This document shows, piece after piece, positions 12,317 through 28,523 of a stretch of DNA of 64,000 bases. Below the pieces are notes generated by a model that saw nothing but the letters and a program-made list of their open reading frames with translations, searched no databases and was not told where the DNA came from. The stretch is from Rhodospirillales bacterium (GTDB taxonomy: Bacteria; Pseudomonadota; Alphaproteobacteria; Rhodospirillales; Casp-alpha2): assembly GCA_023145215.1 (NCBI GenBank), contig JAGLED010000020.1, positions 1 to 64,000 on the forward strand. Reading direction: 5' to 3'. The position numbers and the translations under genes are program-made. Each line of letters begins with the position of its first letter. Within the stretch, counting starts at the first letter, position 1.

Positions 12317-12411
12317 GACGTCCCCGTGTTTGTATTGCTCTGACCCGTCAATCTGCGTTCAGACCTGCACGCCAGAACGTGCACTCGTATTCAGGCATCG
12401 TAGGGGACGCA

Positions 12412-12458
12412 TGTAAGTGGCTGATATTTTGAGCCGAGCGATTTGTAAAGATATGTAA
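12412..12458 (-). promoter_or_regulatory. TTACA triple-repeat array upstream of the hybrid kinase gene
   Basis: Read on the minus strand: TTACA (12458-12454), N5, TTACA (12448-12444), N27, TTACA (12416-12412). The last element is about 95 bp before the kinase ATG at 12316. The same spacing occurs at 12545, 18063 and 25893. The 383 bp between 12317 and 12699 hold this array and its divergent partner, and I see no credible gene there. Confidence 0.7.
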
Positions 12459-12544
12459 TGCCGCCGGCCGGTGATCGGAATGTCATGGATCCAGCCAGTG
12501 TAGGGTTGCGCAGACATCGATGAATGTTTCGACGATTCTCGCGC

Positions 12545-12591
12545 TTACAAAGAATTACAAATTCACTTATCCGGAAGAAACTATGATTACA
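12545..12591 (+). promoter_or_regulatory. TTACA triple-repeat array upstream of chemoreceptor gene
   Basis: TTACA at 12545, 12555 and 12587 (N5 then N27), directed towards the chemoreceptor gene at 12700 and back-to-back with the array at 12412-12458. Ten-base phasing of the first two repeats fits tandem binding of an OmpR-family dimer. The third element may be or overlap the -10 region (ATTACAG). Confidence 0.7.
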
Positions 12592-12699
12592 GGGGTATGC
12601 GAATGTGGCGTCGTGGGTCGAGACCGAGCCACAAGCAGTTTCAATTTGATCTGTTATTCGAAAATCCATAACAGACGATAGACATTTGGAGGTTCCCCC

Positions 12700-14271
12700 A
12701 TGGATGGCCAAATTCAACCCATCGAAGACAACGGCGCGCAACAAGCCGTGACTACTAACCAGACCTCGACGTCGATGAATGACGGCCAGTCGGGCGCGTC
12801 AAAAGATTCCCGAGAGAAAAGCGAACTCGCAGCAATCGTCGACGCGCTGAACAAGTCCCAGGCGACCATCGAATTCGACATGGACGGTAAAATCCTCCAT
12901 GCGAACGACCTGTTTCTTGGTGCGATGGGCTATAGCCTAAATGAGATCAAGGGCAAGCATCACAGCATGTTCGTGGAACCCGAGTACGCAGCCAGCAATG
13001 AGTATAGGGATTTCTGGCTAAGCCTGCAGGCCGGCAAGTTCCAGTCGGCCCAGTACAAGCGTATCGGAAAAGGCGGCAGGGAAATCTATATCCAGGCGAG
13101 CTACAATCCCATCATCGGGACCGATGGCCGCCCCTACAAGGTCGTCAAGTTCGCGACGGACGTGACGGAACAAAAACTCCGAAATGCCGATTTTCAGGGG
13201 CAGATCGACGCCGTCAACCGGTCGCAGGCGACGATCGAATTCGAACTGGACGGTACGGTCCGCAAAGCGAACGATTTGTTCCTGAAGACGTTGGGTTACT
13301 CGCTGGATGAGATCAAAGGAAAGCATCATAGCATGTTCCTGGACAAGGAAGAATCCAGCGGTGTCGAGTACCAGGGGTTCTGGAAGTCGCTGGCCGCAGG
13401 CGAGTTCAAATCCGGCGAGTTCAAGCGGGTCGGGAAGGGCGGCAAGGAGGTCTATATTCTCGCCTCCTACAATCCTATCTTCGATCTCAACGGCAAACCT
13501 TACAAGGTCGTCAAGTATGCGACAGACGTAACATTCGCGCGCGACCAGCGCATCGAAGCGGTCAAAACCATCCATAACGAACTCATCGTTATCGGCGGCG
13601 AAGTGAAGACCGTGAGCAACCTGGTTTCGGAAACGGCGAATGCCTCGGAACTGACGGCGGCGAATGTGCAGGCGATGGCCGCCGCGACCGAGGAAATGAC
13701 GGCGTCGGTCCGTGAAATCAGTCAGCAGGTCGTCCGCTCGAACGGCGTCGCACAGCATGCGGTAACTCAGGCGCAAAGCAGCAACTCGGCGATGGAAGCT
13801 CTCTCTGAATCGGCGCAGCGGATCGGTGATGTCGTGCAGTTGATCAGTGACATTGCCTCGCAGACCAACCTGCTCGCGCTAAACGCCACCATCGAAGCTG
13901 CCCGCGCCGGCGATGCCGGCAAGGGGTTTGCGGTTGTCGCATCCGAGGTCAAGAACCTGGCGACGCAAACCGCCAAAGCGACGGCGGATATCGGGGCGCA
14001 GATCGCCGGTATCCAGAGCTCGGCAACCGCGTCGGTTGATGCGATGAAGTCGGTGACCGAGACGATTGGTGAAATCAGCGAAATCTCCACGTCGATTTCG
14101 GCGGCTGTCGAAGAGCAAACGACGGTTACCGAAGAGATTTCCCAGAACATGCAGACGGCGTCGGCCGGTGTGGACCAGATCGCAAGCGGCACGGCGGAAA
14201 TCTCGGCCGCAATGCAGAAGGTCGACGATGCGACGGCGCGCGCAGGCGACATTTGCCAGTCGCTGTCCTAA
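12700..14271 (+). CDS. Soluble methyl-accepting chemotaxis protein with two PAS domains
   Basis: Cytoplasmic chemoreceptor of 523 aa; GGAGG lies 6 nt before the ATG and no transmembrane segment is present. Two PAS domains (about residues 45-155 and 165-280) are near-duplicates: both contain SQATIEF, KANDLFL or [17 protein letters not shown] and YKVVK(F/Y)ATDVT. Residues 295-520 are the signalling domain with the hairpin tip [20 protein letters not shown] followed by [15 protein letters not shown]. Such PAS receptors usually sense redox, oxygen or metabolites inside the cell. No C-terminal CheR/CheB-docking pentapeptide is seen. It heads the island's plus-strand series. Confidence 0.9.
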
Positions 14272-14324
14272 GTTGGACCGCGAATATTCGGTACGTCACG
14301 ATGAACCGTGTCGTACCCCCGGGG

Positions 14325-14354
14325 TTGCCGGTCAGCTAAAAACGTGACCGGCAA
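14325..14354 (+). terminator. Stem-loop after the first chemoreceptor gene
   Basis: Perfect 10-bp inverted repeat TTGCCGGTCA / TGACCGGCAA with a 10-nt loop (GCTAAAAACG), 53 nt after the chemoreceptor stop and 75 nt before the next ORF. The exit TTCCCTTCATGTTT is only moderately T-rich, so termination may be partial. Confidence 0.55.
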
Positions 14355-14428
14355 TTCCCTTCATGTTTACATTGGCTGGAGCTCTTTGGGCTCTGGCCAC
14401 TCGTGTCAGGAGCATTCGGTAGCAGGTC

Positions 14429-17400
14429 ATGAAACAGCACGACCAGAAAGACGACATCGCTGATAGCGCTTCTCCCGCCGCGCTGTCCGCGGCGCTGAAA
14501 AGCGTGCTTGGTGTCATGGGTGCTTTCGCATGGTCTTACGATATGAAATCGTCGAAGTTCCTGAGTGTGGACTTCGAAGGAGAGATGTTCCTCGGTTACA
14601 CCCGCGATGAGTGGGGATCCTTGCAGCTTTGGCCCGGACACATCCACCCGGAAGACCGAAGCCATGTCGTCTCAAAGCGCATGGCAGCGCACACTAACGG
14701 CAAGGTGCTGGACGTCGAATATCGGCTACGCTGCAAGGACGACAGCTACGTTTGGGTGCGCGAGTTGTCCGGGCTGGTGGAGCTGAACAGTACGGCGTTC
14801 GTGACCAAAGGGATTCTTTGCAATGTCAACGATGCCCACGGCACACGTGGGCTGGCGCCGGAGCGCGAGTATCAGTACCGGAGGCTTCTGGACTCGATGC
14901 CGGACGCGTTTCTGATCGAACAGGACAACACCATCGTTTTCGCTAACCCGGCCGCCGAGCGGATGTTGGAGCTTGAAAGCGGATCGTCTTTAATTGGCTG
15001 CGAGGCCGACAGCATTTTCGTCGATGCACATCACGCGCGCGCCCGGCACGATTCCCTGACCCGGGGCGGGCGCAAGGACTGCACGTCGAATGAAGTGGTG
15101 CAGGCGCTTTCGGGACACAAGTTCGATGCCGAGTTGGTGAGTTGCCTTACACTCTGGCGTAACCGCGAAGCAATCCAGACAGTGGTTCGCGACCTGTCGT
15201 GGCTAAACAAGGTGTTGGAACTGTTGCGCGATGAGCGCAACCTGATGAAGCTCATTCTCGATAACATCGGCGACGGTGTATGCCTCGTCGATTCTGACGG
15301 CATGATCAAGTCCACCAATCCGGCGTTGACGCAGATGTTCGGCTTGAACGACGCGGCCTTTTTCGGCCGGACGGCGCACGAGCTGTTCCATGTCATCGGC
15401 GATGAAGAGGAAACGACCCCGGACGTATGCCCGATCTGCGCCAGGCAAGCAGCGGGCGAGCTATTCCAATTCGAAAAGACGTTCGCACGTGATGCGGACG
15501 GGGCCAGTGTGATTCTCCGGTTCGAGAACACACCGATCTTTAATACCGATCAGCCGCTCGCCTCGGTCGTCACGGTTCGTGACCTGACGGAGGAACTCAA
15601 AAGCCAGGCCGAGATCGACAAGTTGACGCTTGCCATCGAACAGAACCCGGTCGCCATTCAGATTACGGATCTGGACGGCAGGATCGAGTATGCAAACCCG
15701 ACTTTCTGCAGCGTCACGGGGCAGCGTGCCGAAGACCTGTATGGTCGTATTTCACCGTTTTTCGATGGTGCGGTTGTAGGCGATGATGCAGCCCGCGACG
15801 TGCTGCAGCAGTTGCGCACGACGCGAACGTGGGAAGGTGATTTCGAGGAGTTTCAAACGGCAGATCGGCGTTATTGGATTCGTGGCGTCGTGACGCCGAT
15901 GAAGGACACGCACGGCAACGTCAATTACTTCGTCGGCATGTACCGCGATATGACCGATGAAAAGTATGCAGCGGCGCTCCAGAAGGCGACGGAAAGCAAA
16001 GTCAGCGTCATCTTTGAATCGTTGGGAAACGCCATCCTGATCGTGTCGGAAAACGGTCGAATTCAGAATACGAACCCCGCCGCGATGCAGCTGTTCGGAT
16101 ACGACGATCAGGCATTGCAGGGGGTACATGTCGGCAGCATCGTTCCCGGGGTCAATATCGAGGATCATGCAAGTGCCGTGAAGGGGCGGCATCTTCGATC
16201 AGGGCGCGAGACGGTCGCGGTAACCCGAAACGGGCGGCAGATTCCCGTCATTCTGACGGTCGCGGAAATGCCGGAGCCGGAGTGGGCATACACGGATCGC
16301 CGCACCAGGCGGCGGCGTTCGTACATTTGTACGGTTCAGGACATCAGCGAGCAACGGAACGCTCAAAACGCCATCGAGAATGCGCACAAGATGGAAGCGC
16401 TCGGCCAACTGACCGGGGGACTGGCGCACGATTTCAATAACCTGCTTGGAATTGTCATCGGCAATCTCGACCTGGCTCAAGAGGAGAGCGAGGATCACCC
16501 GGACCTGCACAGCTTCGTCACGACTGCTCAACGCGCCGCTCTCAGGGGGGCTGAACTGACCCGCAGCCTGCTCGATTTTTCCAGAAGTTCGACCGTTAAC
16601 ACCGAGAATCTGAACGTGAACGACGTTGTCGGCGAATTGGAGCAGCTGATGCTGCCGGCGCTAACCGCCCGGATTACGGTGGAAAAATCGCTCGAAAGCG
16701 ATCTGTGGCACGTCAACCTCAGCAGAAGCGAGTTTCTGTCTGCACTGATGAATTTGGCGCTGAATGCGCGCGATGCCATGCCTGCGGGCGGGACGGTCAC
16801 GGTTTCGACGCGGAACGTCGACAATCTTGCACCCATGCCTGTCGCCGTCGGGATTTGCCCGCCCGGACAGTACGTCGCCATCGAAGTGGCCGACACGGGC
16901 GAGGGCATGGACGAAAATACACTTGGGAAAATGTTCGAACCTTTCTACACGACCAAGGAAAAGGGGAAGGGGACGGGACTTGGACTGAGTACGGTGTTCG
17001 GCTTCGTACACCGCGCCAACGGTGTGATCGATGTCCGGTCTAAGCCGGGTGAGGGCACCGCGATCACCTTGCTGGTGCCGCGCGCCTCGGCAAGTACCAA
17101 TCTTGAAGAGTCGGTGCCGTCGGTACAGGGGCGCGGCAAGCACGGCGAAGGCGAGCTTCTCGTCGTCGATGACGAGCCGGAACTAGCCAGTTTCTGCCAA
17201 TCCACGCTGGAGCGTTCGGGTTATGTGGTCCATCTCGCCGCCAACGGCGCCGATGCGTTGGAGGTGTTGCGCGAGAACCCGCAGATCACGACAATGATCA
17301 CCGATGTGGTGATGCCGGGAGAATTCGACGGGATCGACCTCTGCGGCGAAGTCGCCAAGGTGAACGGGCGTATCAAGATCATCCTCACGACCGGGTACGC

Positions 17401-17518
17401 GGAGAAGCTCGACGGCAACGCGCCGTTGCCCGGAAATTGCTACGACCTCATCCGCAAACCGTTTCGCGGCCGCCAATTGCTTGAGGTCGTCGACCGTGTG
17501 ACGTCGACCAGCATCTAG
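14429..17518 (+). CDS. Multi-PAS hybrid histidine kinase with C-terminal receiver
   Basis: Soluble kinase of 1029 aa. About five PAS-like sensor regions occupy residues 25-640 (examples: MPDAFLIEQDNTIVFANPAA at about 157, QITDLDGRIEYANPTFCSVT at about 411, ENGRIQNTNPAAMQLFGYDD at about 541). The dimerisation/phosphorylation helix has H667 in GGLAHDFNNLLGIVIGNL, the subgroup often found in large alphaproteobacterial kinases. ATPase motifs NLALNARDAM, DTGEGM and GTGLGLSTV follow. The receiver (about 908-1025) has D959 in MITDVVMPGEFDG. One PAS segment (about 330-345) has a CPIC pair that could bind metal or sense redox. The stop is immediately followed by the degenerate TTACA array before the next gene. 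Confidence 0.88.
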   Translation: MKQHDQKDDIADSASPAALSAALKSVLGVMGAFAWSYDMKSSKFLSVDFEGEMFLGYTRDEWGSLQLWPGHIHPEDRSHVVSKRMAAHTNGKVLDVEYRLRCKDDSYVWVRELSGLVELNSTAFVTKGILCNVNDAHGTRGLAPEREYQYRRLLDSMPDAFLIEQDNTIVFANPAAERMLELESGSSLIGCEADSIFVDAHHARARHDSLTRGGRKDCTSNEVVQALSGHKFDAELVSCLTLWRNREAIQTVVRDLSWLNKVLELLRDERNLMKLILDNIGDGVCLVDSDGMIKSTNPALTQMFGLNDAAFFGRTAHELFHVIGDEEETTPDVCPICARQAAGELFQFEKTFARDADGASVILRFENTPIFNTDQPLASVVTVRDLTEELKSQAEIDKLTLAIEQNPVAIQITDLDGRIEYANPTFCSVTGQRAEDLYGRISPFFDGAVVGDDAARDVLQQLRTTRTWEGDFEEFQTADRRYWIRGVVTPMKDTHGNVNYFVGMYRDMTDEKYAAALQKATESKVSVIFESLGNAILIVSENGRIQNTNPAAMQLFGYDDQALQGVHVGSIVPGVNIEDHASAVKGRHLRSGRETVAVTRNGRQIPVILTVAEMPEPEWAYTDRRTRRRRSYICTVQDISEQRNAQNAIENAHKMEALGQLTGGLAHDFNNLLGIVIGNLDLAQEESEDHPDLHSFVTTAQRAALRGAELTRSLLDFSRSSTVNTENLNVNDVVGELEQLMLPALTARITVEKSLESDLWHVNLSRSEFLSALMNLALNARDAMPAGGTVTVSTRNVDNLAPMPVAVGICPPGQYVAIEVADTGEGMDENTLGKMFEPFYTTKEKGKGTGLGLSTVFGFVHRANGVIDVRSKPGEGTAITLLVPRASASTNLEESVPSVQGRGKHGEGELLVVDDEPELASFCQSTLERSGYVVHLAANGADALEVLRENPQITTMITDVVMPGEFDGIDLCGEVAKVNGRIKIILTTGYAEKLDGNAPLPGNCYDLIRKPFRGRQLLEVVDRVTSTSI

Positions 17519-17565
17519 TTACATTCGTCTACATCTTCATACGTGCGAAAAATATTTCGCTGATA
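17519..17565 (+). promoter_or_regulatory. Degenerate TTACA array upstream of a single-domain receiver gene
   Basis: TTACA (17519-17523), N5, CTACA (17529-17533), N27, TGATA (17561-17565). The spacing is the same as the four better arrays, with one substitution in the second repeat and a changed third element. The inner A-rich block (GAAAAAT) also aligns with those at 18063 and 25893. It starts directly behind the upstream kinase stop codon. Confidence 0.45.
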
Positions 17566-17606
17566 TGCGGCTGATATAAGAGCGCCAGTCAACAAGAGGG
17601 CGCCTC

Positions 17607-18005
17607 ATGAAAAAGCCGATCGTACTTGTCGTCGACGATGAGCCCGATATCGCCGAATTGATAGTCAAGAGCATTGCCACCATGGGGCTTCAGTGCGTTG
17701 TCGCATCGCGCTTCGAGGACGCGTTACCGTTGACTGGCGACAGTAACGTCGTCGTCGCAATTGCCGACATCTTCGTGCCCGGTATGGGCGGGATAGAGGG
17801 TATCAGCCGTATCAAGCGCCTGAACGGTGCTTGCCGGGTGATCGCGGTTTCCGGCGGTTTCCGGCGTATGAACAGCGCCGATGCGTTGCGCGCCGCCGCA
17901 ATCGTCGGCGCGGATGCCGTTCTGCCGAAACCTTTCCGCCCGAAAGAATTGTGCGCGCTCGTAACCGAGGTGCTGGATACCGCGAAAAGTCAGGAAACGG
18001 CATGA
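17607..18005 (+). CDS. Single-domain response regulator (CheY-like receiver)
   Basis: Receiver of 132 aa without an output domain. The acidic pocket is D10/D11 (VLVVDDEPDIAEL), the phospho-acceptor D54 (AIADIFVPGMGG) and the conserved lysine lies in VLPKPFRPKEL. The position after the GG-containing loop has AVSGGF, so the usual Thr/Ser is Ser. It sits between a hybrid kinase and a chemoreceptor and has its own degenerate TTACA array, so it may be a phosphate sink or shuttle for the kinase rather than the motor CheY, which is more likely the protein at 22706. Confidence 0.85.
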   Translation: MKKPIVLVVDDEPDIAELIVKSIATMGLQCVVASRFEDALPLTGDSNVVVAIADIFVPGMGGIEGISRIKRLNGACRVIAVSGGFRRMNSADALRAAAIVGADAVLPKPFRPKELCALVTEVLDTAKSQETA

Positions 18006-18062
18006 CCCCACGGCACAGAGAAATATGTGAATTTTCAAATGCTTGGTCGATCGCAGCCGGGT

Positions 18063-18109
18063 TTACAAATCTTTACATTATCGATTCTAGGAAAAATCCG
18101 CCGCTTACA
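18063..18109 (+). promoter_or_regulatory. TTACA triple-repeat array upstream of the che operon
   Basis: TTACA at 18063, 18073 and 18105 (N5, N27), 71 bp before the chemoreceptor ATG at 18181. The segment TAGGAAAAATCCGCCGCTTACAC aligns closely with TAGGAATAATCGCGTGCTTACAC at the 25893 array, so the conservation extends beyond the repeats themselves. Confidence 0.75.
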
Positions 18110-18180
18110 CTGGCGTGTCATTTTGCCACCGTCGATAGATCGACAAATCGAACGGATGTGTAGGGAAAAGGCGTAAGACA

Positions 18181-19326
18181 ATGCTGGACCAACAACAAGG
18201 CATCAACGGCGCGAACGGAACGGCTGATATCGCCAGGCTGCACATGCTTGAGCAGATGCTGGATCAAATGCCCATCAATGTGATGCTCGTGGAGCCGAAG
18301 AACTTCATCATCACGTACGTCAACCAGACCAGCATCCAGACGCTGAGCCCGCTTGCCGATCTGCTGCCGGCGCCACCGGATCAACTCAAGGGCAAATGCA
18401 TGGATATCTTCCATGCCAAGCCCGAGCATCAGCGCAAGATCGTCGGCGATCCAACCAAACTGCCGTGGAAGACGCGCATCACGCTTGGTCCGGAAAGCCT
18501 GGACCTGCTGGTTAGCGCCATTCACGACAGCGATGGCACCTACATGGGCGCGATGCTCACGTGGTCGCTGGTGACCGACAAAGTCGAACTTGCCAAGAAC
18601 TTCGACGCGAACATCAAGTCCGTGGTCGAGACTGTCCTTTCCGCGTCCCGCGAGATGCAGACCAGCGCCGAGGGAATGGCGCGGTCATCGGGAGAAACAT
18701 CGGAGAAAGCGGGCGCCGTCGCCGCCGCGTCGGAACAACTGACCGCAGCCATCAACGAAATCTCCTCGCAAGTCACACGTTCCGCGGATATCTCGCGCAA
18801 CGCTGTCGGCGAAGCCCGCCGCTCGAATGAGATGGTCCAGGGGCTTGCCGAAGCAGCCGAGCGGATCGGTCAGGTGGTGACCTTGATTAATGACATCGCG
18901 AGCCAGACCAATCTTCTGGCGCTGAACGCTACCATTGAGGCGGCCCGAGCCGGGGATGCCGGCAAGGGCTTTGCAGTGGTCGCGTCCGAGGTCAAGAACC
19001 TGGCCAATCAGACGGCTAAGGCTACGGATGAAATCGCCGGCCAGATCGGTTCGATCCAGAGCGCAACCAAGGACTCGGTCAGCGCGATCGAGGGGATCTG
19101 CGGCACCATTGACGAAGTGAGCCAGATTGCGACGACCATATCGTCTGCGGTCGAGGAACAGAGCGCGGCAACCCGTGAAGTCGCCGCGAACATTTCCGGG
19201 GTTACGACGGCGTCTTCCGAGGCCGGTGAAACGGCATCGCAGCTTCTGACCTCAGCGACGGAACTGTCGGGACAGGCAGACCGTCTGCAGAACGAAGTCG
19301 ATGCGTTTATGGAAAAAATCGACTGA
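18181..19326 (+). CDS. Soluble methyl-accepting chemotaxis protein with N-terminal PAS-like domain
   Basis: Chemoreceptor of 381 aa with no membrane segment. Residues about 18-135 look like a PAS domain ([20 protein letters not shown], then [19 protein letters not shown]), and residues 150-375 are the signalling domain with tip [20 protein letters not shown]. It is the first gene of the operon with cheA (70 bp downstream), cheW, cheY and cheZ, so it is a natural dedicated input for this pathway. Transcription probably starts from the TTACA-array promoter. Confidence 0.88.
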
Positions 19327-19396
19327 TCGAAAAGGGGAACTGCCGACAGGCAGGGCGGCCCGATGGGAAAACGAGCCTTAAAGAAGAGTACAAAAA

Positions 19397-22180
19397 ATGG
19401 ATGATCTTCTCCAAGAATTTATCGCCGAAGCGACCGAGAACCTTGCCGTGATCGACCAGGAGCTGGTCCGTCTGGAGCAGCACCCCAACGACACGGAGAT
19501 CCTCGGTAATATTTTTAGGCTGGTTCATACGGTGAAAGGGACTTGCGGGTTCCTGGGTCTCTCCCGTCTGGAAAAGGTAGCGCATTCGGGAGAGAACGTG
19601 CTTGGAAAGTTCCGCGACGGCGAACTGGAAGTCACGCCGGACGCCGTCACCGTGATCCTCGAATGCATTGATCGGATCCGAGAAATTCTTGGGGCGCTCG
19701 AGGAAAGCGGCAATGAGCCGGCGGGTGACGACAGCGCACTGATCACCAGCCTCGACCAACTGATCGAACCGGCCGCACCGGCGCCCGCCAAGGCTGCCGA
19801 AGCACCGAAGGCCGAGAACAAGGAAGCACCCACGAACAACGGCATGGCCGTAAATGAATTCGGCGCGCCGATCGCAGCCGAAATGCTGGCCGAGCTTGAG
19901 GCCGCGGGTGTCGATCTCGATGCCGATGAATCTGACGAACCAGAACATGCCAATGACGCCGAACCCGATCGCGCGGAACCGGACGTTAGCGACGAACCTT
20001 CTCCCTCCTCCCTGCCCGAGTCCTCTTCGGTCGATGATGCCGGCTTCCCCCCCGCTGACGGCAACGCTTCCGGAGAGGACAAGGGGAGCGGGCAGAAGGC
20101 GATTGAGCCGGCCGCACAGAAGCGCGAATCCGCGGTTGCTGCCTCGAGCCTCCGCATCAATGTCGACGTGCTCGAAAATCTGATGACGCTTGTGTCCGAA
20201 CTGGTGCTGGCGCGAAATCAGTTGCTGCAAATGGTGCGCGGTTACGACGACCATGAGTTCGCCGTGCCGCTGCAGTTGCTCAGCCATATCACCACCGACC
20301 TCCAGGAAGGTGTGATGCAGACCCGCATGCAGCCGATCGGCAATGCATGGTCGAAACTCCCCCGCATCGTCCGCGACCTCTCGGTTGCCTCCGGCAAGAA
20401 GATCGACCTGGTGATGGATGGTGCCGAGACCGAACTCGACCGTCAGATTCTCGACCTGATCAAGGACCCGCTGACGCACATGGTCCGGAACTCCGCCGAT
20501 CACGGTCTCGAAGATCCCGGACAGCGTCTCGCCGCGGGTAAGCCCGAAACCGGCAAGATTCGTCTCAATGCCTTCCACGAAGGCGGCCACATTATCATCG
20601 AGATTTCCGACGATGGACGGGGGCTGAATACGGACCGTATCCGCGCCAAGATCGTCGAGAAGGAAATCCTTTCGGAGGCCGCCGCAGCAGCACTCAGCGA
20701 CCAACAGGTTCAGCAGTACATCTTCCACCCCGGCTTCTCGACTGCGGAAAAGATCACCAATGTCTCCGGGCGCGGGGTCGGGATGGATGTTGTCCGGACC
20801 AATATCGAGCAGATCAACGGCTCGATCGATCTCCGCTCGGTTAAAGGAGAGGGGACGACGGTCACCATCAAGATTCCGTTGACGCTGGCGATCATCTCGG
20901 CGCTCTTGGTCAAATCCGCGTCCGAGCGTTTTGCAATCCCGCAGTTCAGCGTGATTGAGCTCGTGCGCACGGCGCCGAACTCCGAACATCAGATTGAATA
21001 CATCAATAAGAACGCGGTTCTGCACCTCAGGAACCAGCTGTTGCCCTTGATCCGCCTCGACAATTTGTTGGGCATCGCCGAAACCGGCGACGAGACCCGC
21101 TCGGAAGACGCCTTCGTGGTCGTCACCAAGACCGGGAACTCGACCTTCGGGATCGTCGTCGACCAGGTGTTCGATACCGAGGAAATCGTCGTCAAGCCGA
21201 CCTCGCCGGTGCTGCGCGGTATTCGCCAGTTCTCCGGCAACACCATCCTCGGTGACGGCAGCGTAATCATGATCCTCGATCCGAACGGCATCGCCGCCGA
21301 AGTTGGCGAGATCCAGGCCAAACTGAATTCCAAGGCCGACGGTTCCAGGGGCACCAACGTCGATGACAAGAAGGTGCCGCTTCTGCTGTTCAAAGGTGAT
21401 AGCAACGAGCCGATGGCTGTACCGTTGGTACTGGTTGCGCGCCTGGAGGACATCGCCAACAAGGATGTGGAACATTCCGGCGGCTTCGATCTGGTGCAGT
21501 ACCGCGGTACGTTGATGCCGCTGGTCACCATGAGCGGCAACGGCCTGCCTCAGGACCGGGAGTCGCATCCGGTTCTGGTGTTCTCCGACCGGGGTCGCCA
21601 ATTCGGCTTGGTGGTCAACGAAGTCGTCGATATCGTCGAGGACAAGATCGATATCGAGATGCCGAGCAGCCGCGACGGCACGCTGGGCAGTGCCGTCATC
21701 AACGGCCATGCGACGAACGTACTGGACTCGGAGTACTACATTCACAAGGCGCTCGGCGACGCGCACGTGAATGGTTCCAAGGCGCTGAATGCGAATATCA
21801 CCGGCCGTCCGAAAACCCTTCTGGTCGATGACAGCAGCTTCTTCCGCAGCCTGATCTCGCCGTTGCTCTCCGTCGAGGGATGGGACGTGACGTCGGTTTC
21901 GTCGGTCAAGGATGCGCTGGCGCTGCGCGATGCGGGCGAGCAGTACGAACTGATCATCAGCGATCTCGACATGCCGGAACTCGACGGCTTTGACTTCGCC
22001 TCCAGTGTCCGAAACGACGAACGCTGGAAGGGGACGCCGTTGATCGCGCTCTCGGCACAAAACGGCTCTCAGAATATCGAGCGCGCTCATACGGTCGGGT
22101 TCACCGACTACGTCGCCAAGAACGACCGTGAAGGTCTGTTGCACTCGATCCGCTCGATCATGAGCAACCAAGCCGCCTGA
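19397..22180 (+). CDS. cheA: Chemotaxis histidine kinase CheA with two CheW-like domains and a receiver
   Basis: Central kinase of 927 aa. Hpt domain 1-105 with H44 (FRLVHTVKGTCGFLG); acidic, Ala/Pro-rich linker about 115-250 in place of a clear P2 domain; dimerisation helices from 253 (INVDVLENLMTLVSELVLAR); ATPase domain about 315-465 (HMVRNSADHGLE, DDGRGL, GRGVGMDVV); CheW-type coupling domain about 470-605 and a second, weaker one about 630-785; receiver 803-925 with D856 (LIISDLDMPELDG). Such CheA-REC hybrids are common in alphaproteobacteria. The built-in receiver may act as a phosphate sink. cheW follows 23 nt later. Confidence 0.93.
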   Translation: MDDLLQEFIAEATENLAVIDQELVRLEQHPNDTEILGNIFRLVHTVKGTCGFLGLSRLEKVAHSGENVLGKFRDGELEVTPDAVTVILECIDRIREILGALEESGNEPAGDDSALITSLDQLIEPAAPAPAKAAEAPKAENKEAPTNNGMAVNEFGAPIAAEMLAELEAAGVDLDADESDEPEHANDAEPDRAEPDVSDEPSPSSLPESSSVDDAGFPPADGNASGEDKGSGQKAIEPAAQKRESAVAASSLRINVDVLENLMTLVSELVLARNQLLQMVRGYDDHEFAVPLQLLSHITTDLQEGVMQTRMQPIGNAWSKLPRIVRDLSVASGKKIDLVMDGAETELDRQILDLIKDPLTHMVRNSADHGLEDPGQRLAAGKPETGKIRLNAFHEGGHIIIEISDDGRGLNTDRIRAKIVEKEILSEAAAAALSDQQVQQYIFHPGFSTAEKITNVSGRGVGMDVVRTNIEQINGSIDLRSVKGEGTTVTIKIPLTLAIISALLVKSASERFAIPQFSVIELVRTAPNSEHQIEYINKNAVLHLRNQLLPLIRLDNLLGIAETGDETRSEDAFVVVTKTGNSTFGIVVDQVFDTEEIVVKPTSPVLRGIRQFSGNTILGDGSVIMILDPNGIAAEVGEIQAKLNSKADGSRGTNVDDKKVPLLLFKGDSNEPMAVPLVLVARLEDIANKDVEHSGGFDLVQYRGTLMPLVTMSGNGLPQDRESHPVLVFSDRGRQFGLVVNEVVDIVEDKIDIEMPSSRDGTLGSAVINGHATNVLDSEYYIHKALGDAHVNGSKALNANITGRPKTLLVDDSSFFRSLISPLLSVEGWDVTSVSSVKDALALRDAGEQYELIISDLDMPELDGFDFASSVRNDERWKGTPLIALSAQNGSQNIERAHTVGFTDYVAKNDREGLLHSIRSIMSNQAA

Positions 22181-22203
22181 GCCAGAAAGTAGGGAATAAG
22201 ACC

Positions 22204-22680
22204 ATGCAAGCAACGAGTACCGCCGTGGTGCAGCACTTGGCCGAGGATGCCGATGTCCAACAGATCCTGACGACCACGGTTGGCGACCAGGTGTTCGGCA
22301 TTCAGGTTTTGTCGATCCAGGACATTCTACAGCCGCGCAACGTCGCGCATGTGCCGAAAGCGCCCGCCGACATCGCCGGCCTGATTAACCTGCGTGGCCG
22401 GATCGTCACGGTCATTGACCTTCGTCACTGGCTTGGGTTCGACCCGGCAGAGGTGCAGCAGCAAATGCACATTGTCGTCGAGCACGATAACGAGCTTTAC
22501 AGCTTTCTGGTGGACTCGGTCGGCGACGTTATTGCCGTCGATCGCGCCGCCGTCGAGGGTGTGCCGCCAAACCTCCCGGAGCAGTGGCGCACGATTTCGA
22601 AGAATGTTCTTCGCGAGGAGAAGGATCTGGTCCTGATCGTGGACGTGTCCGTTCTGATCGCGGCCCTGGCCAATAATTGA
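22204..22680 (+). CDS. cheW: Chemotaxis coupling protein CheW
   Basis: Scaffold of 158 aa linking chemoreceptors to CheA. The SH3-like CheW fold shows QVFGIQVLSIQDILQP, VPKAPADIAGLINLRGRIVT and the conserved Arg in NLRG (receptor contact). The last strands include VDSVGDVIAVDRAAVEGVPP. It lies 23 nt after cheA and 25 nt before the cheY ATG in the same operon. Its length and motifs are normal for the family. Confidence 0.93.
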   Translation: MQATSTAVVQHLAEDADVQQILTTTVGDQVFGIQVLSIQDILQPRNVAHVPKAPADIAGLINLRGRIVTVIDLRHWLGFDPAEVQQQMHIVVEHDNELYSFLVDSVGDVIAVDRAAVEGVPPNLPEQWRTISKNVLREEKDLVLIVDVSVLIAALANN

Positions 22681-22705
22681 AATTAACGAGTTGGAGACTA
22701 CGAAA

Positions 22706-23092
22706 ATGGCAGTTGATAAGGCAATGCGTGTTCTGGCGGTCGATGACTATCAGACCATGCTTCGAATCATCTCGAACCTGCTGCAGCAGTTGGGATTCCG
22801 GAATATCGATACTGCATCCAGCGGCGATGAAGCGCTGGATATGATCAACAATAACCACTACGGCCTGATTATTTCCGACTGGAACATGGAGCCGATGACC
22901 GGTTTGCAACTGCTCAAGGAAGTGCGTTCGAAGGACGAGACCCGCGCGGTCCCGTTCATCATGGTCACTGCCGAAAGCAAAACCGAGAACGTTGTCGCGG
23001 CGCGCAAGGCCGGCGTCAGCAACTACATCGTCAAACCGTTCAACGCGGAAACTCTGAAACAGAAAATTTCGTCGGTCCTCGGAGAATTCTGA
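22706..23092 (+). CDS. cheY: Chemotaxis response regulator CheY
   Basis: Receiver of 128 aa starting MAVDKAMRVLAVDDY. The ATG at 22706 has GGAGA 8 nt upstream; a TTG start at 22691 would overlap that ribosome site. Phospho-acceptor D58 (LIISDWNMEPMTG), Thr in MVTAES and Lys in YIVKPFNAE complete the active site. SDWNMEPMTGLQLLKEVR is the flagellar-motor CheY pattern, and it lies directly upstream of cheZ, so it is the best candidate for the motor-binding CheY of this cluster. Confidence 0.92.
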   Translation: MAVDKAMRVLAVDDYQTMLRIISNLLQQLGFRNIDTASSGDEALDMINNNHYGLIISDWNMEPMTGLQLLKEVRSKDETRAVPFIMVTAESKTENVVAARKAGVSNYIVKPFNAETLKQKISSVLGEF

Positions 23093-23127
23093 AGACCGCC
23101 AGTCAGGTGAAGTAAAGGCAAGACGCA

Positions 23128-23910
23128 ATGGCACAAACGAAGCGTTTCACCATCGAGGCGAGCATGAAGGACCAGACACCAGCCCAATCCGCGCAGCCGG
23201 ACGGGCAATCCGTCGGTGCGGAAGACGCAAAGGAACCGGATGTGACCCTCGAGGACATGATGGCCGCTGTCGCGCGTGTCGTTCGCGACGAATTAAGCAA
23301 CTGGCAGCCACCGGCAGCCCCTGAGACGACGAAAGCCCCTGGAGCATCGGATGACGCCGGTGAAAACCCTGAATCGGCAGAGGAAATTCTCTTCGCCCTT
23401 TCCGAGTTGCAGAAATACATCGCCACCTCGCGTAGCGAGATCGCGGCGCTGAAGTCGGAATCCGACGGTAAATCGCAATTCAATACAGCGAAGATGGAAT
23501 TGCAAGAGATCGTCGACGCGACGGCCAATGCGACCAACGATATCCTGAACGAAGCTGAGGCGATCTCCGGAATTCAGGCGTCTCTGGCAGAAAAATGCGC
23601 GGCTGCGCAGATTGACTCGATGGCCGATGAATTGTCCGGACTGGAGAACGCAAGTATGCAGATCATGCTTGCGTGCGGTTTCCAGGATCTGACCGGTCAG
23701 CGTATCAACAAGGTCGTCAACACATTGATCTTCGTCGAAGAGCGGATCAATAAGCTACTCGAGGTCTGGAACGTCGAAAGCGGCACCGGTTCGTCGGAGT
23801 TAAAGGCGACGAGGGACGACGACACACGCCCTGACAAAGACCTGCTGAATGGACCGCAGGCGGATGGTGAGGGAATTTCCCAGGACGACATCGACGCGAT
23901 GTTCGCCTGA
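23128..23910 (+). CDS. cheZ: CheY-P phosphatase CheZ
   Basis: Protein of 260 aa. After a hydrophilic N-terminus (about 1-85), residues 90-215 form the long helical hairpin, with the catalytic stretch ACGFQDLTGQRINKVVNTLI containing the Gln that aligns with the CheZ active-site glutamine. The C-terminus GISQDDIDAMFA is the conserved CheY-binding tail. This phosphatase shortens the CheY-P lifetime. It is 35 bp after cheY, which supports the assignment. Confidence 0.88.
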   Translation: MAQTKRFTIEASMKDQTPAQSAQPDGQSVGAEDAKEPDVTLEDMMAAVARVVRDELSNWQPPAAPETTKAPGASDDAGENPESAEEILFALSELQKYIATSRSEIAALKSESDGKSQFNTAKMELQEIVDATANATNDILNEAEAISGIQASLAEKCAAAQIDSMADELSGLENASMQIMLACGFQDLTGQRINKVVNTLIFVEERINKLLEVWNVESGTGSSELKATRDDDTRPDKDLLNGPQADGEGISQDDIDAMFA

Positions 23911-23958
23911 CGGGTTGTCGCCAGACGATCGAGGGATCCAGGAGTAACCAAGAAACCG

Positions 23959-25062
23959 ATGTCCGAACAACGACTTACAAAAGAAGACGTCAGCAGGCTG
24001 CTTGAAAAGCCGGGCGACGAGGTGCGCATCGACACGGCGCAAAAGGTTTGCCAGGTGTATAATTCGGAGACCCTTGGCGAGCAGCAGCGCGCGATCGCTG
24101 AAGAGGTGTTCCGGCTTTTGGTTCGCGACCAATCTGACGCCGTTCGCGAAAGCATCGCCGAACACTTGAAGGCCAGCGACAGGCTGCCGCACGATGTCGC
24201 GCTCAAGCTTGCCAATGACATCGACGATAAGGTGGCGCTGCCTGTTCTGGAATGCTCGCAAATTCTCTCCGACGACGATTTGGTGGAGATCGTGCAGACC
24301 GTGGCGCCCGCACGTATGCAAGCGATTGCCGGCCGTCCCACGGTATCGCAAGCGGTGTCGGGGGAACTGGTCAACCGGGGCGATGAAGCGGTCGTGGTTA
24401 AATTGATGAGCAACGAAGGTGCTGATATTGGTACCGAGTCGTTCGAACATGCCTACACACGGTTTACCGGCAGCGAGCGCTTCGACGACGCAGTCGTCGC
24501 CCGCGACCGGATTCCGGTATCGGTCAGAAGCAAGATCCTGTCGGCGCTTACCGACAGCTTTCTGGAGGTTCTGTCCGGCAGCAAGCTGGTCTCGCCCTCA
24601 ATTATTGCGGATATCGTGGTCCAGACCCATGACAAGCTTGCGATGGAGTTGTCGGATCGAACCACGGAATCGCGCGTCGGTGAGCTTGTCAGCAGCCTCT
24701 ATGTCCGTGACCTTTTGACCGCGCCGATCCTGTTGCGCGCGCTTTGCCAGGGCGACATCCTTTTCTTCGAACTGTCGATGGGCACGCTTGCATCGGTGCC
24801 GTTGAAGAACGCCCGGAGCCTGATATACGACGCGGGCGGCGAGGGCTTTAATGCGATTTACCGCAAAGCCGGCCTCGACCCGTCCTATCGGGAACTGTTC
24901 CGTTTCGCGTTCAAAATGTGTCGCGAGTTAACTGAAAGTGGCGAGGACTTCGAGCAGGCTGTGTTCCGCCGCAAGCTGATTGAGCGTCTGCTCACGGAAG
25001 GCACCGAGATCGTCGAAAAGATCGGGAAAGCCGATCTGGACTACTTGTTGGGGAAGCTCTGA
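23959..25062 (+). CDS. DUF2336 domain protein
   Basis: All-helical protein of 367 aa in the DUF2336 family, which is restricted mainly to alphaproteobacteria and looks HEAT-like. Repeating helical units are visible (for example VRESIAEHLKASDRLPHDVA and LPVLECSQILSDDDLVEIVQ), with no signal peptide or membrane segment. Its function is not established. It lies 48 bp after cheZ on the same strand and is convergent with the OmpR-type regulator gene at a distance of 9 bp, so it probably ends the cheAWYZ transcription unit and may have a role in the chemosensory complex. Confidence 0.75.
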   Translation: MSEQRLTKEDVSRLLEKPGDEVRIDTAQKVCQVYNSETLGEQQRAIAEEVFRLLVRDQSDAVRESIAEHLKASDRLPHDVALKLANDIDDKVALPVLECSQILSDDDLVEIVQTVAPARMQAIAGRPTVSQAVSGELVNRGDEAVVVKLMSNEGADIGTESFEHAYTRFTGSERFDDAVVARDRIPVSVRSKILSALTDSFLEVLSGSKLVSPSIIADIVVQTHDKLAMELSDRTTESRVGELVSSLYVRDLLTAPILLRALCQGDILFFELSMGTLASVPLKNARSLIYDAGGEGFNAIYRKAGLDPSYRELFRFAFKMCRELTESGEDFEQAVFRRKLIERLLTEGTEIVEKIGKADLDYLLGKL

Positions 25063-25071
25063 TCCGCGATC

Positions 25072-25803
25072 TCAGGTTTTCTTGATTTTCGCGACGAACG
25101 AGTATCCGGCATTGCGGACGGTTTTGATGTAAACCGGGCATGTCGGATCATCGTCGAGTTTCTTCCTGAGCTTGCCGATAACCACATCGACGCTGCGGTC
25201 ATAAGGCATCCAGTCCCGACCGGAAACGATGTCGATGATCCGGTCCCGGCTCAGGATCTTGCCGGCACTGCCGACCAGCGCATCAAGGACCTTGAACTCA
25301 TGCGTGGTCAGATTGACCGGGTTCCCGTCATCCTTTTGCAGCACTTGCCGCGTCTGGTCGAGCGTCCAGTCGCCGATCCTGATCCCGTCACCGACCGCGG
25401 CGGTTTCTTGGGCCGGCGGCGGCGTATCGTTCTTCAGGCGGCGGATAACGGTATGCAACCGGGCGATCAGCTCACGGGCATGAAAAGGTTTGGTGATGTA
25501 ATCGTCAGCGCCGATTTCCAGTCCGACGACCTTGTCGATCACGTCGTCCTTGCCGGAAATGATGACGAAAGGAAGTTGATAATCCGTACGTAACTGGCGC
25601 GCCAGGTCTAACCCGTTTTCGTCGGGCAGAATCAAGTCAAGAAGAACGATGAAAGGCCGTTCTTGCCGTATTTGTTCATGCATTTCTTTGCCATTATTGG
25701 CAAAGCGCGGCAAAAATTGATCCCTTTTCAGGATATTATTGATCGTTTCCTGCATATCTGGGTCGTCTTCGACCACCAGGACGTGCGAGTATTTCTCGGA
25801 CAT
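25072..25803 (-). CDS. OmpR/PhoB-family response regulator
   Basis: DNA-binding regulator of 243 aa. The ATG at 25803 follows AAGGA. The receiver (about 5-120) has D13/D14, phospho-acceptor D56 (VLLDLILPDENG) and Lys in YITKPFHARELIARL. The winged-helix output domain (about 145-240) contains LTTHEFKVLDALVGSAGKIL, DRSVDVVIGKLRKKLDDDP and VRNAGYSFV. No histidine kinase lies next to it, so it is an orphan. Its promoter region is shared with the operon at 25995 and contains a TTACA array whose 10-bp repeat phasing is what OmpR-type dimers recognise. I infer that it controls the island. Confidence 0.88.
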   Translation of the reverse strand: MSEKYSHVLVVEDDPDMQETINNILKRDQFLPRFANNGKEMHEQIRQERPFIVLLDLILPDENGLDLARQLRTDYQLPFVIISGKDDVIDKVVGLEIGADDYITKPFHARELIARLHTVIRRLKNDTPPPAQETAAVGDGIRIGDWTLDQTRQVLQKDDGNPVNLTTHEFKVLDALVGSAGKILSRDRIIDIVSGRDWMPYDRSVDVVIGKLRKKLDDDPTCPVYIKTVRNAGYSFVAKIKKT

Positions 25804-25892
25804 GGATCGTCCTTGTAACGGTTTCCCCACTGTTTTGATTTTTAATGAACTTCGGGACGCCCGTAAAGATTCGGAAATCCACATGTCGCAGC

Positions 25893-25939
25893 TTACATTT
25901 CTTTACAATTCGAAGATTAGGAATAATCGCGTGCTTACA
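25893..25939 (+). promoter_or_regulatory. TTACA triple-repeat array upstream of the 25995 operon
   Basis: TTACA at 25893, 25903 and 25935 (N5, N27), in the 191 bp between the OmpR-type regulator gene (minus) and the plus-strand operon starting at 25995. It lies 55 bp before the ATG. It could also autoregulate the divergent regulator. Confidence 0.75.
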
Positions 25940-25994
25940 CGCCGGGCGTACGGTGCTCCCTGACGAATTCATTTGAAGTGATCCAGGGTGTGCC

Positions 25995-27080
25995 ATGTCC
26001 GTCATTCAAGAACTCTCGAAAACAGGCGAGGCCAGTCATTCAGCCATCGCCGCGGGTGCGCAGAACGATCTGGACCTGTTCCATGTGCTGCCGCTGAATG
26101 GCCTTCCGCTCGAGACGCCGACACTCCGCCAGGCGCGGATGATCAAGAGCCAGAACCTTGAATCGATGATCGAAATTTTTCGCGATCAGGTCACCGGGAG
26201 CGGCCAGATCGCCGTCAAGGATCTGACCAAGCAATTCGGCGGCGGCATGCTTGGCGACAGCGACATCAAGCTCTTGAATAATCTCAGCCGCTTAAACAGC
26301 TACGACCCGTTCAGCCTCAGGATCACGCTTCGCGATCTCGACCTGCTGAATGGCGATCTGGCGCAGGTGAAGCTATCTGACGAAAAGCAGCGTGAGCTGG
26401 AACGTTTCATGCATAGCTTCACCCGGCCGTTGATCCAGCAGGTGTTCGGTGGCGAAGAGACCGATATCGAGAAATTCGAGGATATAGTTCGTGTCTTTAA
26501 GGATCCGGATGCGGAGAAAGTGCGCCGTAATCTTGGAAAGCTCGCCGCGCAGCTCAAGATCGAAATCATGGATATCCCGAAGTTTCTCGAAGACTTCAGC
26601 GATGTGTTCCTGTCGTTATCGTATTACCGGGACTCGATCGAACTGTTGGAGCCGAAACTGGCGTTGCTGAATGAGTCGCTTGTGAGCCTCCGCGAGAGCT
26701 ATCAGTTCACCCAGGACTACAACGTGGCGCAAGCCTGCGAGGACACCGTCGACCGTGTGAACCGTGTGTTTATCTTCGTCACCGGTCGACTGGAGAGCTT
26801 TGCCCAGAGTACCGAAAACCTTTGGGAGAACATGACCGCCGAGAACTTCGAGAAGGTGCGAAAGTTGATCAGCAGCTATCACGTGTCGCTGGGCGGGATG
26901 CTTTGCCTGCTCAGCGTCAAACTGGATGCATGGGCGGAAAGCTTCCCGGACCGTGCGATCGGCAGTCCGACGCGCCGGATCGAGTTTCTCCGTTCTGATA
27001 TGCGCCGCGGTATCGATCAGCTCGATACGATCTTCGACGAGACCCCGGCGTTGGCAAACCTTAATGGCACCTCCCACTGA
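25995..27080 (+). CDS. Unrecognised helical protein in chemotaxis operon (361 aa)
   Basis: I do not recognise a family. The protein has no signal peptide, membrane segment or cysteine-rich motif and appears largely alpha-helical, with two broad halves: about 45-210 (including FRDQVTGSGQIAVKDLTKQF and LERFMHSFTRPLIQQVF) and 215-330 (DYNVAQACEDTVDRVNRVFI, then FVTGRLESFAQSTENLWENM). It is the first gene of an operon with 27092, a CheY-like receiver, cheB and cheR, behind a TTACA-array promoter. Position suggests a chemosensory accessory or scaffold role. Composition and codon use look native. Confidence 0.8.
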   Translation: MSVIQELSKTGEASHSAIAAGAQNDLDLFHVLPLNGLPLETPTLRQARMIKSQNLESMIEIFRDQVTGSGQIAVKDLTKQFGGGMLGDSDIKLLNNLSRLNSYDPFSLRITLRDLDLLNGDLAQVKLSDEKQRELERFMHSFTRPLIQQVFGGEETDIEKFEDIVRVFKDPDAEKVRRNLGKLAAQLKIEIMDIPKFLEDFSDVFLSLSYYRDSIELLEPKLALLNESLVSLRESYQFTQDYNVAQACEDTVDRVNRVFIFVTGRLESFAQSTENLWENMTAENFEKVRKLISSYHVSLGGMLCLLSVKLDAWAESFPDRAIGSPTRRIEFLRSDMRRGIDQLDTIFDETPALANLNGTSH

Positions 27081-27091
27081 CTTGAGAAGAG

Positions 27092-28141
27092 ATGATGAGC
27101 GCTATGGACACGGGTTTTGATGTTCATTTGAACTTGGACGATGCGGCGTCTGGCGAACAGCCTATAGCGGTGCCGGACACCGTGACGTTCAAGAATCCCT
27201 TTTTTACTTTCACTGACGGCGTCACCTTCGAGCGCCGCGACGGTGATGAGGATCCTGTCATGGTCGTCCCGATGTCCGAGCAGTCGATCTCGATGCATTT
27301 CCCGGGGGTTATCCGCGAACTTCGGCTGAAACGCGAAGATCACGACTTCATCATGCTGGACACGGTCGCGAAGTCGCTGGATTACGTTTGCGCGCTTCGG
27401 ATGGGTGATCCGATCCCCAGCGAGATCGTCAATGGCCAGGCGTCTTGGCGTATTCTCGACAAGCATCGCGTGACGGCACGCCAGCGGCTGACGATGCAAC
27501 TCGTCTCGTGGCTGAGCGGCAGCGAAGAGCTGGTCACCGACCCGGCTGAACTGACCGCCGCGATGAACAACCCGGAAATCAAGCAGAAGGTCGACGATGC
27601 TTTCGCGTCGGTGGCCGAAGCGCTCGGATATCGGGCCGATCAAAAAGAAGAGGTGGTCTCGTTGGTCGAGACGTTTGCCGACGAGCTGGCTTATATCGAA
27701 GCACTTCGCGAGGTTTTCAACGAGGTCCGCGCCATCAAGACGACGGTCAAGGACCTGATCGACGCTTCAAAATTCGATGAAACGTCGCGCGACAGCGCCC
27801 AGAGCGTCTACCGCCTGTTGCAGAAAGCCGTGCAGTCGTATGCCCAGGAATTCCTGCAGATCGATGCGCAGACGGGCGAGATCATTGCGGTCCTCAAGAA
27901 CGCCAAGTCACAGATCCTTTTTATCCGCAAAGTGCGCGACGAATTGGCACGCCGCCTGCTTGCCTGGCAAGACCTGGAGAAAAAGTGGCGCACGCTGGAT
28001 CGGAAAAATCGCCGGCGCATCGAGGAAGTCACCATGGAGACGTATCGCTTCCTCGCGCTCCGCTTCCTGCCGGCCGTCAATTGGAAGCTGGTGACACAGT
28101 CACTCGACGAAAACGCAAACAACTCAGAATCAGTTTGGTGA
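27092..28141 (+). CDS. Unrecognised protein in chemotaxis operon (349 aa)
   Basis: No family recognised. The N-terminal 65 residues look beta-rich (PDTVTFKNPFFTFTDGVTFE), and the rest is helical with charged, coiled-coil-like stretches (EEVVSLVETFADELAYIEAL; EKKWRTLDRKNRRRIEEVTM). No signal or membrane segment. It lies 11 nt after the 25995 gene and 10 nt before a CheY-like gene, so it is cotranscribed with cheB and cheR. The C-terminal helical bundle could be a protein-binding platform, but this is inference. Confidence 0.8.
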   Translation: MMSAMDTGFDVHLNLDDAASGEQPIAVPDTVTFKNPFFTFTDGVTFERRDGDEDPVMVVPMSEQSISMHFPGVIRELRLKREDHDFIMLDTVAKSLDYVCALRMGDPIPSEIVNGQASWRILDKHRVTARQRLTMQLVSWLSGSEELVTDPAELTAAMNNPEIKQKVDDAFASVAEALGYRADQKEEVVSLVETFADELAYIEALREVFNEVRAIKTTVKDLIDASKFDETSRDSAQSVYRLLQKAVQSYAQEFLQIDAQTGEIIAVLKNAKSQILFIRKVRDELARRLLAWQDLEKKWRTLDRKNRRRIEEVTMETYRFLALRFLPAVNWKLVTQSLDENANNSESVW

Positions 28142-28151
28142 GGCCCTGAAA

Positions 28152-28523
28152 GTGAACACAAAATCTTGTCTGATCGTTGATGATTCGAGAACGGTCCGGT
28201 CGATCGCATCCGGTATCGTTAGCGATCTCTCCTTCGAGCCCCTGGAGGCGGAAAACGGCGCCGAGGCGCTGGAAATCTGCCGTCAGGCTATGCCGGACGC
28301 CATCCTGATGGATTGGCATATGCCGGTGATGAACGGCCTGGAATGTCTGCTCGAATTGCGCCGGATGCCCGGTGGCGATCAGCCGGTCGTCGTTTTCTGC
28401 ACGACCGAAAACGACATCGAACACATCACGCAGGCCGTATCGGCCGGAGCCAACGAGTTCATCATGAAACCGTTCGACAACGAAATCATGCGTTGCAAGT
28501 TCGAGAGTGTGGGACTGCTTTAA
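28152..28523 (+). CDS. CheY-like single-domain response regulator
   Basis: Receiver of 123 aa with GTG start. Acidic pocket D10/D11 (CLIVDDSRTVR), phospho-acceptor D54 (ILMDWHMPVMNG), Thr in FCTTEND and Lys in FIMKPFDNE. It is typical of CheY proteins in alphaproteobacterial che operons. Its stop codon overlaps the cheB start (TAATG), so the two are translationally coupled. As the island has other CheY-like proteins, this one may compete for CheA phosphate or bind a different target. Confidence 0.88.
   Translation: MNTKSCLIVDDSRTVRSIASGIVSDLSFEPLEAENGAEALEICRQAMPDAILMDWHMPVMNGLECLLELRRMPGGDQPVVVFCTTENDIEHITQAVSAGANEFIMKPFDNEIMRCKFESVGLL

Follow-up and report, generated by a model that had tools for sequence, protein, structure and literature searches.

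A fixed three-part TTACA array at the promoters of a Rhodospirillales chemosensory island and its candidate OmpR-type reader

The stretch of DNA analysed here (the window: 64,000 nucleotides, positions 1 to 64,000 of the forward strand of contig JAGLED010000020.1, assembly GCA_023145215.1, from a Rhodospirillales bacterium) carries a chemosensory island at whose promoters a three-part repeat, TTACA-N5-TTACA-N27-TTACA, recurs. We call this repeat the array and count its positions from the first TTACA, so that its elements start at index 0, 10 and 42. From left to right, Pfam matches identify a PAS hybrid histidine kinase with a receiver (10169–12316, minus strand), a PAS-PAS-MCP chemoreceptor (12700–14271, plus), a multi-PAS hybrid histidine kinase (14429–17518, plus) and a stand-alone receiver protein (17607–18005, plus). 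A plus-strand gene run follows, with an MCP-type chemoreceptor (18181–19326), CheA with a C-terminal receiver (19397–22180), CheW (22204–22680), a CheY-like receiver (22691–23092), CheZ (23128–23910) and a DUF2336 protein (23959–25062). Next lies the gene of an OmpR-type response regulator (25072–25803, minus), with a receiver and a Trans_reg_C domain, which we propose as the reader of the arrays on the basis of Pfam, a gene tree and upstream repeats in its relatives. A second plus-strand run comprises two proteins (25995–27080 and 27092–28141), CheB with a receiver (28313–29656) and CheR (29643–30485). The two proteins, which stand between the regulator and cheB, had no match in Pfam or NCBIfam. 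In the island remnant of a congeneric genome, G001, the 27092–28141 protein is complete (77% identity), and of the 25995 protein the last third survives (85%).

Four exact arrays were found in the window, where none is expected (0 in 100 dinucleotide shuffles). Array 1 (12412–12458, minus) lies in the promoter of the hybrid kinase gene at 10169–12316, array 2 (12545–12591, plus) in that of the chemoreceptor gene at 12700–14271, array 3 (18063–18109, plus) in that of the MCP-cheA-cheW-cheY-cheZ-DUF2336 run, and array 4 (25893–25939, plus) between the regulator gene on the minus strand and the 25995-27092-cheB-cheR run on the plus strand. All four had been placed there, on these strands, by a preliminary description of this DNA. 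It had also reported a fifth site that keeps the spacing while its second and third elements are changed; this degenerate array (17519–17565, plus), in the promoter of the receiver gene 17607–18005, indeed reads TTACA, CTACA and TGATA. The tandem half alone (TTACA-N5-TTACA), used as the query, returned the same four exact sites and 17519 at one mismatch, and the third TTACA was present at 4/4 exact tandem sites of the window without being part of that query. A G/A-rich block around GAAAAATC is shared at index 28–35, so the further aligned bases that had been noticed between arrays are real. A hairpin reading of this block was set aside, as it could be made out by eye in only some sites. No fifth exact array occurred in the remainder of the window's genome (G000, a metagenome-assembled genome, MAG, of 2.30 Mb and 66% completeness), which at up to three mismatches gave 15 matches against 14 for a reversed-pattern control. 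Genes of CtrA, ChvI and DUF2336 type mark this genome as probably alphaproteobacterial.

Across 100 genomes, G000 included, we found ten exact arrays, confined to G000 (4), G001 (2) and G002 (4), which form one genus; the other 97 genomes had none, and the control pattern gave 0 matches. The search of the whole genome and its relatives that the preliminary description had suggested as a check revealed no random scatter, and its judgement that chance recurrence of the spacing is very unlikely agrees with both the shuffles and the control. A profile of the ten sites, run on eight genomes of the genus with 150 of the 366 to 1014 first-look candidates scored per genome, recovered only those ten at E < 1e-9. 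Its best match after them was the G002 orthologue of the degenerate fifth promoter (E 0.084), where the fifth array is kept as a degenerate copy. On 20 of the 40 family genomes outside the genus, the best match was G027:C93:8575 (E 0.004), with the tandem half only. At two mismatches the eight genus genomes gave 31 matches, ten of them the exact arrays, versus 23 for the control.

Contig C12 of G002 is syntenic with the left part of the island, and contig C8 of G001 holds a remnant at the same place. Array 1 has syntenic copies in G002 and G001, array 2 in G002, and array 3 at the end of contig C12; all three G000 arrays testable in G002 have counterparts there, and this synteny is independent of the search pattern. 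Six syntenic pairwise comparisons could be made, covering the 10169, 12700 and cheA promoters and a kinase-receiver locus outside the island that is common to G001 and G002. The TTACA letters were identical in each (15/15), partly by construction, the sites having been found by exact match. Among the remaining 49 columns, 18 to 25 agreed in five comparisons (21/49 for array 2 and its G002 copy) and 44 at the cheA promoter. By these alignments the array is conserved as an operator, its TTACA letters kept while most spacers drift. Orthologous promoters in G002 and G001 thus keep the array, and the recurrence of exact copies at syntenic promoters of congeneric genomes upholds the earlier proposal of one operator shared across the island promoters.

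The array outside the island lies between a histidine kinase gene and a receiver gene in both G001 (L091 10063–10130) and G002 (L093 9994–10061); in G002 an open reading frame (ORF) of 144 aa precedes the receiver gene. On G000:C1 no such kinase-receiver pair was found next to the corresponding flanking genes. A site with one mismatch at G000:C22:64456–64502 (L094) was considered as a further member of the regulon and rejected, as its internal sequence differs and it stands before an unknown gene of 146–154 aa. It is itself conserved, with an orthologue in G002 (L095) and similar sites in G001 and G004, and has tandem TTACA/TAACA-type steps. It is probably the operator of another regulator.

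The bases that follow the array point to a promoter in a fixed register. An A at index 57 and a T at index 61, both outside the search pattern, are invariant in 10/10 arrays, so that the sigma-70 type nAnnnT stands at index 56–61 in every copy, beginning 14 bases after the start of the third TTACA. Scored with E. coli −10 weights, the mean −10 score of the ten sites peaks at index 56 among offsets 16–84; 0/2000 base shuffles of the post-array stretch reach this mean, for the ten sites and likewise for five non-orthologous ones. The second-best mean falls at index 43, because the letters TACA are fixed there. The predicted −10 hexamers in this register are TACGAT for array 1 (12397–12402, minus), GAATGT for array 2 (12601–12606, plus; weak, with TATGAT at index 37 scoring better), TATAAG for the fifth array (17575–17580, plus), CATTTT for array 3 (18119–18124, plus; TACACT at index 43 scores higher there) and TACGGT for array 4 (25949–25954, plus). 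In the array alignment no sigma-70 −35 TTGACA was found 17 bp upstream of the −10, the consensus at that place being ATCCGC.

With the predicted −10 at index 56–61, the tandem pair would lie at about −68 to −54 (centre near −61) and the third TTACA at about −26 to −22. The element starts are about one and four helical turns apart (42 bp being four turns), which would set all three on one helix face. The preliminary description had placed the third repeat in or next to the −10 region and the tandem site near −45; the register displaces both. The third TTACA was likewise rejected as the −10 itself: conservation in a TATAAT register is seen at index 56–61 and is lacking in the bases after that element.

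The 25072 protein belongs to the OmpR/PhoB family by its domains (PF00072, 90.8 bits; PF00486, 81.8 bits; both above cut-off), and its best solved chains are RegX3, MtrA, BaeR and KdpE. Its phospho-acceptor pocket (acid pair, D, S/T, K), assigned by eye to VEDD, LLDLILPDENG, IISG and ITKPF, looks intact. Its ORF is open from 25884, but translation probably begins 27 codons further in, at 25803 (MSEKYSH), a start that has a Shine-Dalgarno-like AAGGA and fits the homologues. The protein stays below the cut-offs of the NCBIfam equivalogs for OmpR (NF007005, 197 bits against 331), CpxR (NF008199, 139.8 against 341) and PhoB (TIGR02154, 169.6 against 296.2).

The regulator was linked to the array through its relatives. 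We scanned 80 OmpR-family regulator genes, chosen by similarity and thinned to representatives below 90% identity, most of them from the taxonomic family of the window's genome; five have an exact tandem upstream, namely 25072, L071 (from a Kordiimonadales MAG), G027, G202 and G040, and four more have one with a single mismatch. In the gene tree, 25072 falls into one clade with L071 and G027 (97/92), to which G202 (85/51) and then G300 (83/89) attach. The exact upstream tandem is present in 4/5 of this group and at one mismatch in G300, facing away from the regulator gene. Exact tandems would be expected only 0 to 0.03 times in these outside loci of 19–21 kb. Fisher tests by similarity rank weaken with a looser cut-off (top 3, p 0.0001; top 15, p 0.04), and we therefore rely on the tree clade, a grouping that was chosen after the data were seen.

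At the arrays and at G027, L071, G202 and G040 alike, the TTACA starts are 10 bp apart, the direct-repeat spacing (10–11 bp) of OmpR-family sites, in keeping with the earlier view of the first two repeats as a tandem site for an OmpR-family dimer. The L071, G027 and G202 tandems lie beside the regulator with a receiver gene on the other side; in G027 a 129-aa ORF intervenes, and in L071 the called receiver ORF overlaps the tandem, its domain starting only at residue 78. Another exact tandem of G027 lies ahead of the gene for a PAS-rich kinase of 1428 aa, and the regulator locus of L071 is neighboured by an MCP and a hybrid kinase. The −10 candidates after the outside tandems stand at index 46 (TATACT), 47 (TATACT) and 57 (TATATT), in the helix phase of the window's genus or a turn short of it; for G202 and G040 the candidates are weak. 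At G040 (L197 919–943), three TTACA follow at 10-bp steps between an OmpR-type regulator gene and a Crp-family gene. The promoter association across genera and the gene tree make the 25072 regulator, already named as candidate binder in the preliminary description, a well-supported, best-fitting candidate reader of the arrays.

We conclude that the array probably serves as operator and as promoter signature for a small dedicated regulon that the 25072 regulator reads. The operator, the −10 register, the conservation and the association with the 25072 clade are all read from sequence. The regulator would be phosphorylated, probably via the PAS hybrid kinases of the same island, and would then occupy the tandem TTACA-N5-TTACA (about −68 to −54) as a dimer arranged head to tail, while the third TTACA (about −26 to −22), on the same face of the helix, may serve a second subunit or dimer. 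Bound in this way, it could recruit sigma-70 polymerase to promoters that have a −10 (nAnnnT) and no recognisable −35 hexamer, the tandem and third element together replacing the missing −35 at the island promoters and at that of the regulator's own divergent neighbour. The effect would be to activate, not to repress, the promoters, and the whole island is probably switched on together by its own regulator.

Several observations weigh against this reading. Index 56 is the best −10 hexamer of its own site at only 5/10 sites, and the −10 signal lies in the shared register, not in single sites. The outer forks of the regulator clade are modestly supported (the 85/51 and 83/89 above) and its branches long. 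Six further relatives added as a test gave one exact tandem, one with one mismatch and four with 3–4 mismatches; two of those four, L242 and L246, are among the five regulators nearest to 25072 by tree path, though outside the clade. G001 has two perfect arrays, one of them in the kinase-receiver locus that looks intact, but no 25072 orthologue. By presence and absence, a second, ChvI-like paralogue fits the array genomes better than 25072. Finally, exact tandem sites outside the genus lack the third TTACA, bar ATACA in G040, and there is thus no firm support from other genera for that element as a regulator half-site.

The gap in G001 has a likely history. Its island (C8, L090 6800–11600) is a deletion remnant in which the PAS part of 14429 (alignment residues 24–685, the last stretch overlapping the next match) runs in frame into residues 249–357 of the 25995 protein, and 10169 is cut to residues 1–74 and 606–704, in different frames. 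The stretch that holds the regulator is gone from between the two genes that flank it in the window. As the deletion removed what lay between 14429 and 25995, regulator included, the alignments indicate that the regulator was most likely once present in G001 and then lost; the arrays left behind may be relics or may be read by another protein, such as a paralogue. For G002, the regulator's place falls in an assembly gap: by eye, contig C12 breaks off within the gene next after array 3, and no more than 50 bases separate the end of contig C32 from the start of the cheR orthologue.

The alternative that survives best keeps the same regulator and changes the role of the third TTACA, which would not be a half-site but an element of spacer or promoter, or else the repressing site of a two-way switch. 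It overlaps with our preferred explanation, so that the two are not exclusive, and we lean only slightly against it. The third TTACA has no tandem partner 10 bp away and lies between the −35 and −10 positions, where a bound protein often represses; its absence from the outside tandems speaks the same way. A half-site is favoured by the recurrence of the same five letters, always four turns away, at all four exact tandem sites of the window, and by their retention while the surroundings drift.

The array could also be read by another OmpR-type paralogue or by a different transcription factor, possibly in G001 only, where some reader is needed if the arrays live. Repeats of a loosely similar kind do occur close to the genes of relatives in the wider OmpR-type clade, such as GACA-N5-TTACA ahead of G001:C4:1562734. 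We consider this unlikely: within our survey, which was confined to OmpR-family regulators, the paralogues widespread in the genus are also present in G004, which has no exact array, and exact tandems are concentrated around the 25072 clade.

The reader could instead be the ChvI-like second paralogue (G000:C1:215634–216377; L108 2535–3278), which lies outside the window with its own histidine kinase. In the regulator comparison (G000, G001, G002, G004 and G007 in full, G005 and G006 in part) it was the only OmpR-family orthologue group present in all three array genomes and in no other genome of the genus, and a direct search found no close homologue in G003–G007. It lies 45 kb (G001) and 32 kb (G002) from the arrays outside the island, and its G040 homologue is 3 kb from the TTACA triple repeat. 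This paralogue has an insert in the winged helix and a kinase gene downstream, occurs in few of 48 family genomes and is distinct from true ChvI. The loci around the ChvI-like genes of G000, G001, G002 and G017 contain no exact tandem TTACA, and the upstream stretches of all six such genes gave 3–4 mismatches at best. Exact tandems occur in G027 in the absence of such a paralogue, the only match there (40%) being of the true ChvI type, and the described ChvI motifs are different ones, TTGC-N3-GCAA and GCC-N8-GCC (PMC9731502). First favoured by its phyletic profile, it was demoted on account of the upstream scan and the G001 deletion map, and we now regard it as quite improbable.

Chance, or recent copying of one promoter, can be set aside: some spacer letters are common to the 18063 and 25893 sites, but none of the arrays is expected, the spacers have otherwise diverged and the copies are conserved at syntenic promoters.

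Several known systems resemble the arrays in part. At PhoB-type promoters the pho box takes the place of the −35, and its proximal half ends roughly as far ahead of the −10 as the third TTACA does here (9 bp). Unlike at those promoters, no second TTACA stands 10–11 bp upstream of the third, and the main tandem pair lies further upstream. As with OmpR, TorR, ArcA and CenR, the 25072 protein combines a receiver with a winged helix and its putative site consists of two direct-repeat half-sites 10 bp apart, yet the protein falls below the NCBIfam cut-offs for OmpR, TorR and ArcA alike. CenR, an alphaproteobacterial OmpR-family regulator, uses a 10-bp direct repeat, TGA-N8-TGA; its predicted effect is activation at sites upstream of the −35 and repression where the sites overlap promoter elements (PMC9275681). 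The tandem lies upstream of the −35, as CenR sites do at promoters predicted to be activated, while its conserved letters, TTACA-N5-TTACA, are not the TGA-N8-TGA of the CenR operator as given there (PMC9275681). By this rule of site position the tandem location would imply activation; the third element could also be a braking site.

The CpxR box, GTAAA-N4-8-GTAAA (PMC5063474), reads TTTAC-N5-TTTAC on the other strand with N5, and 4/10 arrays match that form exactly. The arrays differ from it in their fixed third element and −10 register, and the 25072 protein is far below the CpxR cut-off. ChvI and BvrR are likewise alphaproteobacterial members of the OmpR family, and one BvrR footprint holds a direct repeat, TGTCA-N4-TGTCA (PMC10538546); the ChvI motifs named above do not resemble the array. 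Literature on alphaproteobacterial OmpR regulators, chemotaxis operons and OmpR-family chemosensory control, in a coverage that takes in few of the subscription journals, contained no description of the array. What sets it apart from OmpR/PhoB-family direct-repeat systems is the fixed third half-site-like element at −26 to −22 and the tie to a chemosensory and phosphorelay island. The tandem site is thus ordinary for OmpR-family regulators, and we read the set of promoters as an OmpR-type direct-repeat regulon; unusual are the rigid third element and the placing of a whole chemosensory island under one dedicated operator.

For uncharacterised chemosensory islands, signal inputs are as a rule guessed one gene at a time. 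An operator that is fixed and tied to a single regulator clade is a searchable address for the regulon and a link to the PAS hybrid kinases, and it opens the input of this island to a test on four promoters with one protein. With its conserved half-site-like element in the −35/−10 spacer, the array is also a clean case in which to ask how OmpR-type activators replace the −35. We tentatively go one step further, in a proposal that may well prove wrong: the chemosensory pathway would control its own gene dosage through an OmpR-type regulator fed by PAS hybrid kinases. The rigid three-site promoters would drive the receptors, the CheA operon and the adaptation operon, with a distal dimer and a proximal subunit in the −35/−10 spacer acting together. 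If so, an entire chemotaxis-like system would be switched as a single unit, with G001 as a natural example of the joint loss of regulator and island.

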